From: Fibrobacter sp.
Lineage (GTDB): Bacteria > Fibrobacterota > Fibrobacteria > Fibrobacterales > Fibrobacteraceae
Reading direction: 5' to 3'
Assembly: GCA_024398955.1 (NCBI GenBank)
Contig: JAKSIG010000003.1
Location: 1 to 64,000, forward strand
Length of the DNA: 64,000 nucleotides
In this document: piece after piece, positions 47,389 to 54,814 of the stretch
Position numbering within the stretch: position 1 is the stretch's first letter
How the letters are laid out: every line of letters begins with the position of its first letter
Position numbers and translations under genes: made by a program
Notes under the pieces: generated by a model
The model's input: the letters and a program-made list of their open reading frames with translations, nothing else
Databases searched by the model: none
Told to the model about the DNA's origin: nothing

Positions 47389-48433
47389 ATGAAGTTTTTG
47401 AAATGGACCGTGTGTTGGTTGGTGTTAATTACATCGATTGCCTGCGCCAAACCCGATGGACTTTATGTAGATAAACGTGACGGCCATGTGTATAAGTTGT
47501 CTCTTGTGGATAGCCTGGTATGGCTTGGGGGGGAACTTGGTGTATCGTCAGGATGTTGATTATATCTGCTTTGACAAGAAAATTGACAATTGCCTTAAAT
47601 ATGGAGCCTTGTACACTTGGTCGGTAGCAAAGGCTGCGTGTCCGACGGGGTTTCGTCTGGCTAATTCAGATGACTTTGGAAGAGTCGCTGTTGCAGAAAA
47701 AATCAAGATGCTTAGAGGCGCTGATTGGCAAGGTTTTGACAAGCTGAATTTTAATGCGGTTCCTAGTGGCTATTGCGATCATGCGGGGTGCTGGAATTTG
47801 GATAAAAGCGCTCATTACTGGACTGGTGAAGATGCTGGAAATTATGGCATTACTCTTGTCTTGACGAATACTTGGGGCCGCAAGATGGTCGATAAGAAGG
47901 ATTATCTGGCTGCACGCTGTGTGGCTACGGATTCCTCGATAATTAGGAGAGCCTTTGCTTACTGGAAACAATCTGTAGACGAACCCAGGAATGGCTATGT
48001 TGAGGATCGTCGCGATGGTCGCAAATATAAGGTGACTGCTGTTGATGGTTTGTATTGGTTTGCCGAAAATCTTGAGTTTAAGATTGGTCAAAGTTTCTGC
48101 TACGAAAATTCAGTGGAAAACTGCAGCCTTTATGGAAGACTGTATTCGTGGGAAACGGCAAAGCATGCCTGTCCTGCGGGATGGGCTTTGCCAAGTGCTG
48201 ATGAGTTGGATAAAATGGTAAATGCTGCTGATAGTCTTTTTGCAGCGCTTCCTGGAGGCGAAAAGACGGATGACGGTTTTTGGGGGAAAGGCAAGTACGG
48301 ATCTTTCTGGAGTTCGTCGGAAGAAGATAAGATGCACGCTTTTTACTGGGAATATAATAAGGCGTGGAAAAAACGCAGTGTTTATAAGGAACACGGGAAG
48401 TCGGTTAGGTGCGTGAGGAGAGTAAAGAAATAG
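47389..48433 (+). pseudogene. Two-domain FISUMP protein gene, frameshifted at a G7 tract
   Basis: The ATG at 47389 opens MKFLKWTVCWLVLITSIACA, a signal peptide with lipobox-like IACA, then DGLYVDKRDGHVYKLSLV. At a run of seven G (47527-47533) the frame is lost and ends at a TGA after about 55 residues. The rest, NLVYRQDVDYICFD and KAACPTGFRLANSDDF, continues in another frame as two full FISUMP domains to 48433. Removing one G restores a single protein of about 347 residues. It may be a sequencing error, a pseudogene, or phase variation by slippage at the G tract. Confidence 0.82.
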
Positions 48434-49121: not shown

Positions 49122-49221
49122 AAACACCTCGTGAAAATTAATGGCGCAAATCTAGAAAAAAACAGGTGTGGTACAAAGTTTTTCCTATTTTTTCTATAAA
49201 GATTGAGTTTAGGGTGTGCGG

Positions 49222-49608
49222 ATGAAACTGAGAAGAATTTCCTTACTACTATTCCTTTGTAGTCTGCTTTATGCCGGGGAACACGACAATGTCGTAAAAT
49301 TCCTGCGAGATATGATGGAACATTCAAAATTTGAAAACTATGATTTTTTGAACGCCCATTGCTCCGGAGATTTGTTAAAAAAACTGGAAGCGGACTATGA
49401 TTATGAATGTGAAGATGGTCCTTGCTATGCTGTATGGAAATTTAGGGAAGGGGCCAGCGATGTCTTGAAATGGAAAGTTATGGAAGTTAAGCCGATTGGT
49501 GATGGCTGGTATCTTTATACTTTTCAGGAGAACGATGTTGTTTCGAGTCGTCGTGTTCATGTTCGTGTAGAAAATGATTCGGTAATACTTCTTGATTTAA
49601 AACCATAA
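49222..49608 (+). CDS. Small exported protein of unknown function
   Basis: A 128-residue exported protein (signal peptide 1-18, ending LLYA) from ATG 49222 with AGGGTG five bases upstream. The mature part is acidic, with two Cys pairs (HCSGDLL; YECEDGPCYA), a WKFREGASDVLKWKVMEV segment and a C-terminal beta pair (GWYLYTFQENDVVSSRRVHV, VRVENDSVILLDL). The pattern resembles small lipocalin-like or NTF2-like domains, but no family is certain. It ends 84 bp before the start codon of the ABC transporter gene and is not obviously part of it. Confidence 0.6.
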   Translation: MKLRRISLLLFLCSLLYAGEHDNVVKFLRDMMEHSKFENYDFLNAHCSGDLLKKLEADYDYECEDGPCYAVWKFREGASDVLKWKVMEVKPIGDGWYLYTFQENDVVSSRRVHVRVENDSVILLDLKP

Positions 49609-49692
49609 TCAATCATGTTTGTGGGCAAACAGAAAAAATTGTTTGCTGATATACCTATATTTCACAACATGTTTTTCAATAGGAATGGTCGC

Positions 49693-51921
49693 ATGGTTCG
49701 TAATGTTTTTAAGATGGTTGTGACTGCTGCTTTGGCTCTTTCCGCTATGGTCTTTGTGGGTTGCTCTGCAGGTGGTGACGACGCTTTGGTCAATCGCGTG
49801 TTCAAGGTTTCTGACCTGGGCAAGAAGAAGGTTGGTGTGCAGATTGGCAACACCGCCGACATTTATGCTTCTGAATATGGTGGCGATACCGCAAAGATCG
49901 ATGTGGAACGCTACACCAAGTTGGCGGACGCGGTTCAGGCCTTGAAGCAGGGCAAGATTGACGCGGTGCTTTTGGATGACCAGCCGGCAATTTACTTCGT
50001 GAAGCAGAATCCCACGCTGCGAGTTTTGGACGAAGCTTTCGTGGAAGAAACTTATGCAGGTGTGATCGCCAAGGGTAACGAAGGCCTCTTGGATACCTTC
50101 AACCTGGTGCTGAAGGAAATGCACGAGAATGGCATTTTCGATTCCTTGATGAACACTTACATCAACGGCACTGGCTCTTACCATTACGCTCAGAAAGTGA
50201 AGGAAGGACCTCATCTGGTGCTGGCTACCAACGCCCAGTTCCCGCCTTACGAATATCACGAAGGTGAATTTATCGTGGGTCTTGAAATTGAGCTGGCTTA
50301 CTACCTGGCCGATAAGATGGGTCGTGTGCTGGAAATTCAGGATATTGAATTTGACGCTGTGATTAACGCCGTAAGTTCCGGCAAGGCTGACCTTGGCCTT
50401 TCTGGCTTTACCGTTACGGAGGAACGCAAGAAGTCCATCAACTTCACCGACAAGCTGGTGGATAACAAGGTTGTAATCATGGTTCGCGGCGATATTAAAC
50501 CTAGCGAACTAGACAACAAGGTTTTTACTGTTAGCGATCTTGGTCATAAAAAGGTGGGTGTGCAGATTGGCAACACCGCCGACATTTATGCTTCTGAATA
50601 TGGTGGCGATACCGCAAAGATCGATGTGGAACGCTACACCAAGTTGGCGGACGCGGTTCAGGCCTTGAAGCAGGGCAAGATTGACGCGGTGCTTTTGGAT
50701 GACCAGCCGGCAATTTACTTCGTGAAGCAGAATCCCACGCTGCGAGTTTTGGACGAAGCTTTCGTGGAAGAAACTTATGCAGGTGTGATCGCCAAGGGTA
50801 ACGAAGGCCTCTTGGATACCTTCAACCTGGTGCTGAAGGAAATGCACGAGAATGGAATTTTTGATTCCTTGATGAATACCTACATCAACGGCACTGGCTC
50901 TTTCCATTACGCCCAGAAGGTGAAGGAAGGACCTCATCTGGTGCTGGCCACCAACGCTCAGTTCCCGCCTTATGAATATCACGAAGGTGAATTCATCGTG
51001 GGTCTTGAAATCGAGTTGGCTTACTACCTGGCCGACAAGATGGGTCGTGTGCTGGAAATTCAGGATATTGAATTTGACGCTGTGATTAACGCCGTAAGTT
51101 CCGGCAAGGCTGACCTTGGCCTTTCTGGCTTTACCGTTACGGAGGAACGCAAGAAGTCCATCAACTTCACCGACAAGCTGGTGGATAACCGCGTGGTGAT
51201 TTTGGTCCGTACGGGCATGAAGGAAGATTCCGAAGAAACCTTCGTGGAAAAGTTCCAGAAGAATTTCATTAAGGATAACCGTTGGAAGTACATTGCCGAA
51301 GGTCTTCGTAATACCATAATTATTGCGCTTTGCGCTGCATTGCTTGGCATTCTCATTGGCTTCTTGGTGGCCATGGTTCGCGTGAATCATGAGTTCAACG
51401 GAAAGTGCAAGATTGCCAACTGGGTTTGCAAGGCTTACCTGGCGGTAATCCGCGGAACTCCGATGATGGTCCAGCTGTTGATCATCTATTACATCGTTTT
51501 CTCTTCTGTGAACATAAACAAGTTGCTTGTGGCGATTATTGCTTTTGGCATTAACTCCGGCGCCTACGTTTCTGAAATTATCCGCGGAGGCATCAAGGCG
51601 GTGGATCCGGGGCAGATTGAAGCTGGTCGCAGTCTTGGCCTGAAGTTCAGGACGGTGATGCTCCATGTGGTTTATCCTCAGGCTTTCAAGAATTCCTTGC
51701 CGGCGTTGACCAACGAGTTTATTTCTCTCATCAAGGAAACGTCCATTTGCGGCTACATCGGCTTGACTGACTTGACCCGCGGTGGCGACATTATCCGAAG
51801 CTTGACTTACGAGGCCATGTTCCCGTTGATTTCTGTGGCTATTGTCTACTTTATCATTGTGGCAGGGCTTTCCACTTGCGTGGCTCGCCTTGAAAAACGT
51901 TTGAAGAAGAACGAACGCTAG
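49693..51921 (+). CDS. Amino-acid ABC transporter: duplicated, apparently permuted substrate-binding domains fused to permease
   Basis: A 742-residue protein: lipoprotein signal (lipobox VGC, Cys24), two tandem binding modules, then a HisM-like permease (about residues 513-736, with SAYVSEIIRGGIKAVDPGQ-type EAA loop GQIEAGRSLG). Each 241-residue module starts with the C-terminal part of an SBP_bac_3 domain (DLGKKKVGVQIGNTADIY ... LLDDQPAIYF ... GIFDSLMNTYI) and then gives its N-terminal part (LVLATNAQFPPYEYHEG ... GFTVTEERKKSINFTD). So the order is C-N-C-N-permease, unlike the usual N-C. The start is ATG 49693, after AGGAATGG; an ATG at 49615 lacks a site. The ATPase gene follows 12 bp later. 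Either the SBP is circularly permuted, or the halves swap between modules. Polar amino acids are the likely substrate. Confidence 0.85.
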   Translation: MVRNVFKMVVTAALALSAMVFVGCSAGGDDALVNRVFKVSDLGKKKVGVQIGNTADIYASEYGGDTAKIDVERYTKLADAVQALKQGKIDAVLLDDQPAIYFVKQNPTLRVLDEAFVEETYAGVIAKGNEGLLDTFNLVLKEMHENGIFDSLMNTYINGTGSYHYAQKVKEGPHLVLATNAQFPPYEYHEGEFIVGLEIELAYYLADKMGRVLEIQDIEFDAVINAVSSGKADLGLSGFTVTEERKKSINFTDKLVDNKVVIMVRGDIKPSELDNKVFTVSDLGHKKVGVQIGNTADIYASEYGGDTAKIDVERYTKLADAVQALKQGKIDAVLLDDQPAIYFVKQNPTLRVLDEAFVEETYAGVIAKGNEGLLDTFNLVLKEMHENGIFDSLMNTYINGTGSFHYAQKVKEGPHLVLATNAQFPPYEYHEGEFIVGLEIELAYYLADKMGRVLEIQDIEFDAVINAVSSGKADLGLSGFTVTEERKKSINFTDKLVDNRVVILVRTGMKEDSEETFVEKFQKNFIKDNRWKYIAEGLRNTIIIALCAALLGILIGFLVAMVRVNHEFNGKCKIANWVCKAYLAVIRGTPMMVQLLIIYYIVFSSVNINKLLVAIIAFGINSGAYVSEIIRGGIKAVDPGQIEAGRSLGLKFRTVMLHVVYPQAFKNSLPALTNEFISLIKETSICGYIGLTDLTRGGDIIRSLTYEAMFPLISVAIVYFIIVAGLSTCVARLEKRLKKNER
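49836..51190 (+). repeat. 723-bp in-frame tandem duplication inside the ABC transporter gene
   Basis: 49836-50467 and 50559-51190 are almost identical, with starts 723 bp (241 codons) apart. Scattered synonymous differences show the copies have begun to diverge. Recombination between them would delete or add one whole module in frame. Confidence 0.93.
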
Positions 51922-51933
51922 GAGGAAACGGTT

Positions 51934-52674
51934 ATGGCAAAAGAAGTAATGATTCAGGTGAAGAACCTTTGCAAGTCCTACGGCGACAAGCAGATTTTGA
52001 AGAACATTGATGCGGAGTTCCACAAGGGTGACGTGGTTGCCATTATCGGACCTTCGGGTTGCGGTAAATCGACATTCCTTCGCATGTTGAACCTTTTGGA
52101 AAAGCCTACCAGCGGTGACATTTTGCTGGATGGCAAGAGCATTCTGGATAAGAATGTTTCCAAGCCCACAATTCGTGCCCGCGTGGGAATGGTGTTCCAG
52201 CAGTTTAACTTGTTCAAGAACATGACTGCGTTGAAGAACGTGATGTTTGCGCCTGTAAAGCTTGGCCGCATGACCAAGGCCGAAGGCGAAAAGCAGGCCA
52301 TGGAATTGCTGAAGCGAGTGGGCTTGGCTGACCGCGCCGACCATTATCCGGCCCAGCTTTCGGGTGGTCAGCAGCAGCGTGTGGCCATTGCCCGCGCCGC
52401 CGCCATGAATCCTGAGGCAATCTTGTTTGATGAACCTACCAGTGCCTTGGACCCTGAAATGGTGGGCGAAGTCCTGAAGATCATGAAGGACTTGGCTCAG
52501 TCCGGCATGACCATGCTGGTGGTGACCCACGAAATGGGCTTTGCCCGCGAGGTGGCAAACCGCGTGCTGTTCTTTGCCGATGGCGTCATCAAGGAACAGG
52601 GAACTCCTGAGGAAATCTTTGAGCATCCGAAAGATGACCGCCTGAAGGACTTCCTGGCTGCAATCAAGAAGTAA
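51934..52674 (+). CDS. Polar amino-acid ABC transporter ATP-binding protein
   Basis: A 246-residue ABC ATPase of the GlnQ/HisP group. Walker [10 protein letters not shown] (about residues 36-44), Q-loop [12 protein letters not shown], signature [14 protein letters not shown] (about 142-155), Walker [14 protein letters not shown], and the H-loop in [11 protein letters not shown]. It powers the receptor-permease fusion encoded 12 bp upstream; the GGAGG site lies in the gap. A strong terminator follows. Confidence 0.95.
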
Positions 52675-52738: not shown

Positions 52739-54721
52739 TTAACGGATTCGAATGACGGATTGGCGTAGGGCCTTTCCGTTTTTTGTTTCGCGCATTAGGT
52801 AGACGCCGGCTTTTTGGGGGGCAGACTTGAGTATATTTCCATTCATATCAAAATACTGAGTTGTTGTTGTGTGCAATTCCAGAATATTTTGATGCTTCTG
52901 CAAAATAAAGGTTCCCGAATCTGCTGAACTGTCTGGCTTTGTTATGATGGTACTGTCGGATGGTGTTTCAATAGGAGTGTTCGTAGAATCTTTAATTTGC
53001 TCATTAATGGTCGTATCTACAATTGTTATGTTGATGATAAGGCTTGCCTGGTTTTTGCCATAGACGACGGCTTGCTTAATGGTAAATTGGTCTCCTGCAT
53101 TTACCTTATTTGGCATATGCCCAACCTTGGAAGTCATGGTTGACAAATCTACGTTGGAGAATACCACATTGTTCCCGTTGCTGCTCCAGGCGACAACTGC
53201 GCCCTTGGCGTCAAACCAGTGACCAGTACCTTCACCTGTGGTATTGCTGTTTAAAGAACCGTCAGGTTCAATGGCGTAGAAACTTGCCTTTGTTGCAATT
53301 TCACTTTGTTTTACGCCTAGGATTTCTGCAACTTTTGCCCCTTGCAGGTCTACTGTAATGGGGGCGTAGTTATTGCTGATGGGTAACTGCGCCTTTAGAG
53401 CAATCTCTGTGACTGTAAGAGGTTCTGCAGGATTGCCGCTGGAATCTGCAGTTGTTGAACAGTCTCCGCCCAGGCAAAAACTGATACTGTTTCCATTAAC
53501 ACTGACGTCGGTAAAGTTCAGTCCTGTCTTGGCTCCGCTATACCATCGGATAGCGGGGTAGAGATCGTCGGAGAATGCGCTGTAGGAAGCATTAAAGAAG
53601 GCTGACGCACGACTGCCCGGAGACGGCCATTGATCATTTTCAGGATCGCTGGAATTTCCTTTTGAATCGGCGTGAACAATGCGTAAACCGAGTGCATTTG
53701 CAGCAGAATTTGCTCCAATAGAAAAATCATAATGCTGCATTAGGAGACCGCTGCCTTTGAGAGAGGCGTTTCTGCCCTCGTTCTTTACGTAAGACCAAAC
53801 TAAGCCTTCTTTGCTGGGACGGCTGGGATTTTTAAAGCGAAAACATTTTTCACCGGCTGTTGTTGAAATTTTGCCAATGTCGTCTGCGGAAACGTCGACA
53901 AAGGGAATCCAGCCTTGGTCGGCACGATAGAAGTCGTTGATGGCTATGGGATTCCAGTCGTTAGCGCGATTGCCCATGGTGCAGTAATCACCATACCAGT
54001 AAAGGTCGGGCCAGCCAAATACCATGTGTCCATTTTCATGAATGAAAACGTAGATGGAAAATTTTCCTGGCATGTCGGTCATTTGATGTTTTTGCAGAAG
54101 AACGCCGTCGCGCTTTTCGCTTGACCAGCCTGCATGCGGCCACAGTCCCTGTCCCCATGTTAGACCGGGACCTGCGTACACGATATTGATGGCTTCGGTA
54201 ATGCCGTCTTTGTCGTTGTCGTAGCGGGAGTAATCCACTTGGGGATCGAAGTACTCGAATATTTCCTTGACCAAAACATCGGAACCGGAATATCCTTCCA
54301 GCCCTTCGTAATAGGATTTGGGGTGTTTTGCACGGTACCAGCCAAATACTTCATTGGTAAAGTCTAGCTGTCCGTTGGAAACGTCTAGATAGTAATCGCG
54401 AACTGAACCCTTGCAGCCGTCGCGGTTGAATCCTTCCTTGTTCAACCAGTCAGAAATTTCATCGACTGTTACAGGAGCGGGTTGATCAGAAAAATCAACC
54501 AGGAGGGTTAAACCGTAAATTTTTCCTTTGGGTGCAGAATAATGGCTCGTTTCTGTAGCGGGAGCCCTCATCATTTTGGAACCGCGGGTGTTGTCAAACT
54601 TGGTAATGGTCCCTGCAGGCCAAGATTGAACTCGCTTTCCTTGATACACAATATCTGCAAGGGATGTTCCAAACAATGCGAGTACAGAACACCCGAAAAT
54701 CAATTTTTTCAAACAGCGCAT
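52739..54721 (-). CDS. Secreted M6-family zinc metalloprotease with C-terminal sorting-like domain
   Basis: A 660-residue exported protease from ATG 54721 (AGGTGG upstream). Signal peptide about 1-22. An M6/immune-inhibitor-A catalytic domain (about 60-360) has YVFIHENGHMVFGWPDLYWYG (HExxH at about residue 228, third ligand probably the Asp or His nearby) and NDWNPIAINDFYRADQGW. Beta-sandwich repeats follow to about 610. The last 40 residues (YFDMNGNILKSAPQKAGVYL, MRETKN, RQSVIRIR) match the type IX secretion-like C-terminal sorting pattern found in Bacteroidota and Fibrobacter. It probably degrades extracellular proteins. It is divergent from a GH3 gene across operator-like palindromes. Confidence 0.87.
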   Translation of the reverse strand: MRCLKKLIFGCSVLALFGTSLADIVYQGKRVQSWPAGTITKFDNTRGSKMMRAPATETSHYSAPKGKIYGLTLLVDFSDQPAPVTVDEISDWLNKEGFNRDGCKGSVRDYYLDVSNGQLDFTNEVFGWYRAKHPKSYYEGLEGYSGSDVLVKEIFEYFDPQVDYSRYDNDKDGITEAINIVYAGPGLTWGQGLWPHAGWSSEKRDGVLLQKHQMTDMPGKFSIYVFIHENGHMVFGWPDLYWYGDYCTMGNRANDWNPIAINDFYRADQGWIPFVDVSADDIGKISTTAGEKCFRFKNPSRPSKEGLVWSYVKNEGRNASLKGSGLLMQHYDFSIGANSAANALGLRIVHADSKGNSSDPENDQWPSPGSRASAFFNASYSAFSDDLYPAIRWYSGAKTGLNFTDVSVNGNSISFCLGGDCSTTADSSGNPAEPLTVTEIALKAQLPISNNYAPITVDLQGAKVAEILGVKQSEIATKASFYAIEPDGSLNSNTTGEGTGHWFDAKGAVVAWSSNGNNVVFSNVDLSTMTSKVGHMPNKVNAGDQFTIKQAVVYGKNQASLIINITIVDTTINEQIKDSTNTPIETPSDSTIITKPDSSADSGTFILQKHQNILELHTTTTQYFDMNGNILKSAPQKAGVYLMRETKNGKALRQSVIRIR

Positions 54722-54814
54722 ACATTCCACCTTTTGCGTGAAATATATGTTAAAATAAGGGACTTTGTATACAGTTTTGGGGTGTTTTCTTTTGTACACT
54801 CTAATATGCGTGTA

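Follow-up and report, generated by a model that had tools for sequence, protein, structure and literature searches.

Order of the receptor halves in the receptor-permease gene

The known GlnPQ transporters carry tandem canonical receptors on their permease, and a gene at positions 49693-51921 (+ strand) of a 64,000-nucleotide stretch of Fibrobacter sp. DNA (hereafter the window) raises the question of whether such receptors can also be built with their two halves in reverse order. The initial annotation read the 742-amino acid product by eye as lipobox, C-part, N-part, C-part, N-part and permease. Profiles built from relatives of the gene's own family recovered the same succession of blocks, C1, N1, C2, N2 and permease, at residues ~34-159, 175-265, 275-400, 416-506 and 526-742, respectively, counted from the start at 49693. 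The frame is already open from an upstream ATG at 49615, and the ATG at 49693 is the start that yields a lipoprotein signal.

The product begins with a lipoprotein signal peptide (49693-49764) extending to the lipobox cysteine Cys24 (FVGC). This is followed by C1 (49792-50169), which by profile match and structure superposition corresponds to the canonical C-terminal half, i.e., lobe 2 and the return helices of lobe 1. A joining loop (50170-50214), recognized by the 14-21 residues that the C-to-N step occupies throughout the permuted set, would represent the permutation junction between the old C-terminus and the old N-terminus. N1 (50215-50487), assigned by profile match and GlnH-equivalent residues, is the canonical N-terminal half from the start of lobe 1 to hinge 1 and contains the arginine of the TEER motif. 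An inter-module linker (50488-50514), delimited by comparison of linker lengths, leads to C2 (50515-50892), a profile match and near-identical repeat of C1 with the equivalent of GlnH D157 present, and a second joining loop (50893-50937), recognized in the same way as the first, leads to N2 (50938-51210), likewise a profile match and a near-identical repeat of N1. Finally, a linker running from the hinge-1 strand of N2 (51211-51267; median of 19 amino acids in C-N-permease relatives) reaches the permease domain (51268-51918). A lipobox-like cysteine just ahead of the first C-part is present in most of the permuted relatives listed, and the canonical N-C-permease fusions of Fibrobacterota are mostly without one.

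The canonical N-to-C order of SBP_bac_3 halves is absent from the gene, and the profile calls give C-N in its place; the receptor modules are a permuted variant of SBP_bac_3 rather than ordinary members of the family. The control for the order caller, a canonical tandem GlnP-type protein from Enterococcus faecalis (722 amino acids), was read as N-C-N-C-P by the same profiles, so the caller reports the usual order when it is present, and the annotation was also right that each GlnP receptor runs N-C. Pfam assigns SBP_bac_3 to the window gene in two stretches, together with BPD_transp_1. SBP_bac_3 (PF00497) scored 188.6 bits against a cut-off of 26.4, and its best stretch covers residues 201-425 of the longer reading frame from 49615, i.e., it runs across the inner N1-C2. 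Profile matches in the PDB to ordinary amino-acid receptors are split over two separate stretches of the chain, and among the 60 matches listed a whole C-N unit is covered by just one, the tandem GlnPQ structure 6h30.

Three further features were observed in the neighborhood. A small open reading frame with a possible signal peptide and no Pfam match (49216-49608) lies directly 5' of the receptor-permease gene, a protein with Fib_succ_major domains and two similar halves is encoded at 47477-48433, and the opposite strand (52739-54799) encodes a large protein that looks secreted and carries a DUF4859 domain together with a HENGH motif that suggests a metallopeptidase.

Pairing of the halves and predicted fold

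In a mirror-tree test, pairwise identities of C-parts and N-parts were compared for 11 multi-module proteins with diverged modules. The similarities of the two halves correlated at 0.94 when paired inside a C-N module and at 0.42 when paired across the N-to-C boundary, a result that partly reflects duplication of C-N units as units. Both halves of the second module of one protein (L060) have the same nearest relatives, namely the lone modules of single-form proteins. Judged from these sequence comparisons, C-N is the unit of inheritance, and the correlation of the halves also supports, without proving, the structural pairing of C with N.

A lone module (49771-50505), modelled by AlphaFold2 from a 26-row alignment, was predicted as a confident two-lobe fold (mean pLDDT 90.9, pTM 0.85), the outcome that the initial annotation had named as support for permutation. 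In this model, 123 residues of the C-part can be overlaid on 4ymx (residues 135-260) at 1.4 A, and the N-part overlays domain 1 of TmArgBP, so that each half fits the matching part of an ordinary receptor. Ordinary receptors taken whole fitted mostly at ~3.3-3.5 A over ~175 residues, as expected when a permuted chain is aligned sequentially. For the whole module, the best structural match was OpuAC (2b4l; Z 13.6, 205 residues, 4.1 A, 16% identity); the receptors among the matches listed are type II-like, and the sequence homology is to SBP_bac_3. The full-length model was weaker (pLDDT 71.2, pTM 0.43), and its alignment held single-form rows, which favor pairing within a module. OpuAC fits residues 28-270 (C1-N1) and TmArgBP fits residues 273-511 (C2-N2) of this model, and 4ymx could be superposed on residues 173-400 (N1-C2) only at 14.7 A; therefore, this model does not pack N1 against C2 to make one receptor. 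The predicted fold of the permuted modules is thus one in which C1-N1 and C2-N2 behave as units.

The strongest competing explanation, although an improbable one, is that N1 and C2 together form one canonical receptor, with C1 and N2 pairing around it or staying unpaired. N1-C2 has the canonical order and aligns by sequence to ordinary receptors over its whole length, and an inner canonical pair is sterically possible because the N1-C2 linker is only 7-8 residues long in the window gene's clade. However, the N-to-C step, which spans 0-5 residues in canonical proteins (the hinge crossing), spans a variable 7-36 residues between permuted modules, i.e., the chain between modules exceeds a real hinge crossing in both length and variability. 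Moreover, single C-N-permease proteins and free-standing C-N proteins contain no inner pair, and their C and N halves have no other partner within the chain. The correlation across the N-to-C boundary, well below that within modules, and the unformed N1-C2 unit of the full-length model also count against this explanation.

Slightly less probable still is domain swapping between chains, in which the C-part of one subunit would pair with the N-part of its partner. The permease family of such transporters works as a dimer, and a swap within the permease dimer would produce the same sequence order. Nevertheless, the prediction for the lone module packs its two halves on each other with confidence (pTM 0.85), C-N lipoproteins exist free-standing without a permease, and a C-N loop held constant at 14-21 amino acids fits a closed domain.

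Distribution of the permuted order

In a search of the genus, the double form was recovered from ten whole-genome assemblies, including the window's own, and the single form from ~26 other genomes, which encode a protein of ~500 amino acids aligning to the second module and the permease. The order is C-N-P in all single-form loci that were read. With this many occurrences, the arrangement is not due to chance. More distant relatives comprise C-N-C-N-P proteins, free-standing C-N lipoproteins (~285 amino acids) and free-standing C-N-C-N proteins (~567 amino acids). Free-standing C-N lipoproteins occur in another Fibrobacterota family as well (f7, L106-L112), and ordinary N-C proteins and N-C-permease fusions are found elsewhere in the phylum. 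Two genomes encode triple permuted receptors, C-N-C-N-C-N-permease (L055, 1035 amino acids, and L117, 1018 amino acids), and one protein, encoded by a minus-strand open reading frame (L063), has the reversed arrangement P-C-N, with the permease ahead of the permuted receptor. The permuted order suspected from the window alone therefore recurs in other Fibrobacter genomes, both in fusions with one, two or three modules and in free-standing proteins. Profile matches were obtained in 122 of 168 genomes of the phylum, a figure that is not a count of permuted proteins, as canonical proteins match in part. A tblastn search of plasmids with a free-standing permuted receptor returned one record with at least 80% query cover, a canonical tandem GlnP-type protein, and a fold search among viral proteins gave no informative match.

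The possibility that a true N-C-N-C-permease gene was mis-assembled around the near-identical repeat, or that an upstream N-part was lost through an assembly error, is negligible and, as regards the order of the parts, refuted: the gene copies are near-identical over ~300 nt and the source genome is fragmented (109 contigs, 88% complete), but ten genome assemblies agree in order and size, some copies are only 84-88% identical and hence easy to assemble, and single forms share the order, one of them in a one-contig genome (G144). Across the Fibrobacter family, the reversed domain occurs widely, and a normal fold is predicted for it; it is therefore a natural rewiring of a common receptor, not a sequencing error.

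Duplication and gene conversion of the modules

The DNA repeat in the window gene recurs every 723 nt; the copies share an uninterrupted identical run of 299 nt (49834-50132), and the first ~50 nt and the ends have diverged. The copies within a genome are 84-97% identical, with identical tracts that sit differently from genome to genome (L001, L023-L031), and the same copy position is 82-96% identical between genomes. The first 60 nt of the copies (~20 codons) are always diverged (63-85% identical). The within-genome and between-genome identities, together with the shifting tracts, therefore form a pattern of gene conversion, by which the copies are homogenized while their first ~20 codons stay distinct. 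A simple recent duplication was rejected in favor of duplication plus gene conversion on the basis of the tract pattern and the distinct first ~20 codons. Synonymous differences exceed amino-acid differences between the copies in every double, so that selection acts on both copies.

In the permease tree, one clade (support 96/98) unites the permuted fusions and a separate one (100/99) the canonical N-C-permease fusions of the phylum; because of long branches, the positions of some single rows are uncertain. Within the permuted clade, doubles turn up at three distinct places, and the starred branches require the double label to change at least four times, whether by gain or by loss. When the tree is built from the last C-N-permease, the horse-gut doubles constitute one clade (100/100) among singles. 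The initial annotation had proposed that a permuted C-N receptor was fused to a permease and duplicated afterwards. The wide occurrence of singles and the nesting of the horse-gut doubles among them support this sequence of events, in which the single form came first, although the duplication cannot be read as a simple recent event given the homogenization of the copies. A single-module protein from UBA1765 (L006 / L119) also falls inside the horse-gut double clade; this form may reflect module loss or reversion, or an assembly collapse.

Permease, ATPase and ligand site

The permease domain is of the polar amino acid type (HEQRo_perm_3TM / BPD_transp_1 by Pfam; TIGR01726, type HEQRo, 72.4 bits against a cut-off of 42.2), and in the model it resembles 4yms_C, an amino-acid ABC permease (Z 17.0, 203 residues, 3.5 A). 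The gene of a GlnQ-like ABC ATPase, assigned to the same transporter, begins 12 nt downstream (51934-52674, + strand; ABC_tran by Pfam), and its best NCBIfam model is GlnQ (E 6.6e-101, 336.7 bits, under the equivalog cut-off of 379). A relative of this ATPase adjoins the 3' side of most single and double orthologues. These assignments suggest that the gene product is the subunit of a polar amino-acid (PAAT) ABC importer in which receptor and permease are joined.

Both modules of the window protein retain the equivalents of GlnH F13, F50, G68, T70, R75 and D157, of which R75 and D157 bind the ligand backbone, and carry N, Q and L in place of D10, K115 and H156, respectively. The ligand is likely to be an amino acid because the backbone and cleft residues of GlnH are kept. 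A recurrent module type elsewhere (L057, L058, L060, L062) has the carboxylate-binding arginine replaced (R75 to F), and the ligand of this type is probably not an ordinary amino acid.

Proposed mechanism and comparison with known systems

The checks put forward in the initial annotation all favored permutation. Taken together, we consider it very likely that the window gene encodes a PAAT importer subunit with circularly permuted C-N receptors, in which a single C-N-permease form was ancestral and was later duplicated. Each C-N module would be a type II binding domain whose chain has been cut at hinge 1, the first crossing from lobe 1 to lobe 2, and whose old chain ends, both on lobe 1, have been joined through the 14-21-residue loop. 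Lipidation of Cys24 would hold the start of the chain in the membrane, and the chain would then run through two complete permuted receptors and pass from the hinge-1 strand of the second one into the permease. Two such subunits and two ATPases would give a transporter whose four receptors bind an amino acid and deliver it to one shared pathway, as in GlnPQ; GlnPQ-type importers are the model for the double tethering by lipid and transmembrane segments, the four-receptor stoichiometry and the transport cycle proposed here. The horse-gut lineage would have gained the second module when the C-N unit duplicated in tandem, with gene conversion keeping the two modules similar.

More speculatively, the cut at hinge 1 places the lipid-side and permease-side tethers at the hinge strand, where lobe closure around the ligand could pull directly on the link to the permease, much as in the link from S1 to the channel of glutamate receptors. 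A receptor and transporter coupled mechanically in this way, rather than acting as a flexible relay, seems unlikely at present.

Among the closest known systems is GlnP of GlnPQ (Lactococcus and Enterococcus), which likewise has two tandem amino-acid receptors ahead of a PAAT-type permease and an adjacent GlnQ-type ATPase gene, but its order is N-C-N-C-permease rather than C-N-C-N-permease, and its receptors join the permease from the end of lobe 1 rather than from hinge 1. Canonical N-C-permease fusions from deeper families of Fibrobacterota (L127-L132) share the parts, the phylum and the adjacent ATPase gene, and differ in their canonical order, their mostly unseen lipobox and their own permease clade.

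The initial annotation knew of no report of this arrangement, and this holds in part. No literature report of permuted SBP_bac_3 receptors or of permuted tandem receptors on a permease was found in a search that covered few subscription papers, but permuted binding proteins in general are on record. OpuAC (2b4l) belongs to the permuted group found by CPSARST, which reported it as a circular permutation of other binding proteins (PMC2395249); this two-lobe receptor gave the best whole-module match, at 4.1 A, but it binds another class of ligand (glycine betaine) and its sequence identity is low. TpMglB-2 (Tp0684) of Treponema pallidum, a permuted lipid-tethered receptor designated 'Type Ic', binds glucose and changes shape (PMC4990184). 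It too is a natural circular permutation of a lipid-tethered binding protein, but it has a Type I sugar-binding fold, is not fused to a permease and is present in a single copy.

These findings also indicate how domain databases hide permutations, by scoring the halves separately or across the wrong boundary; in the window protein, both PF00497 and TIGR01096 give the inner N1-C2 as the best 'domain'. The permuted receptors of Fibrobacter represent a natural experiment, a rewired version of a widely used receptor fold. Fibrobacterota contain canonical N-C-permease fusions, permuted fusions with one, two or three receptors, and permuted receptors that stand alone, so the effects of chain order and of receptor number on transport are testable in close relatives.
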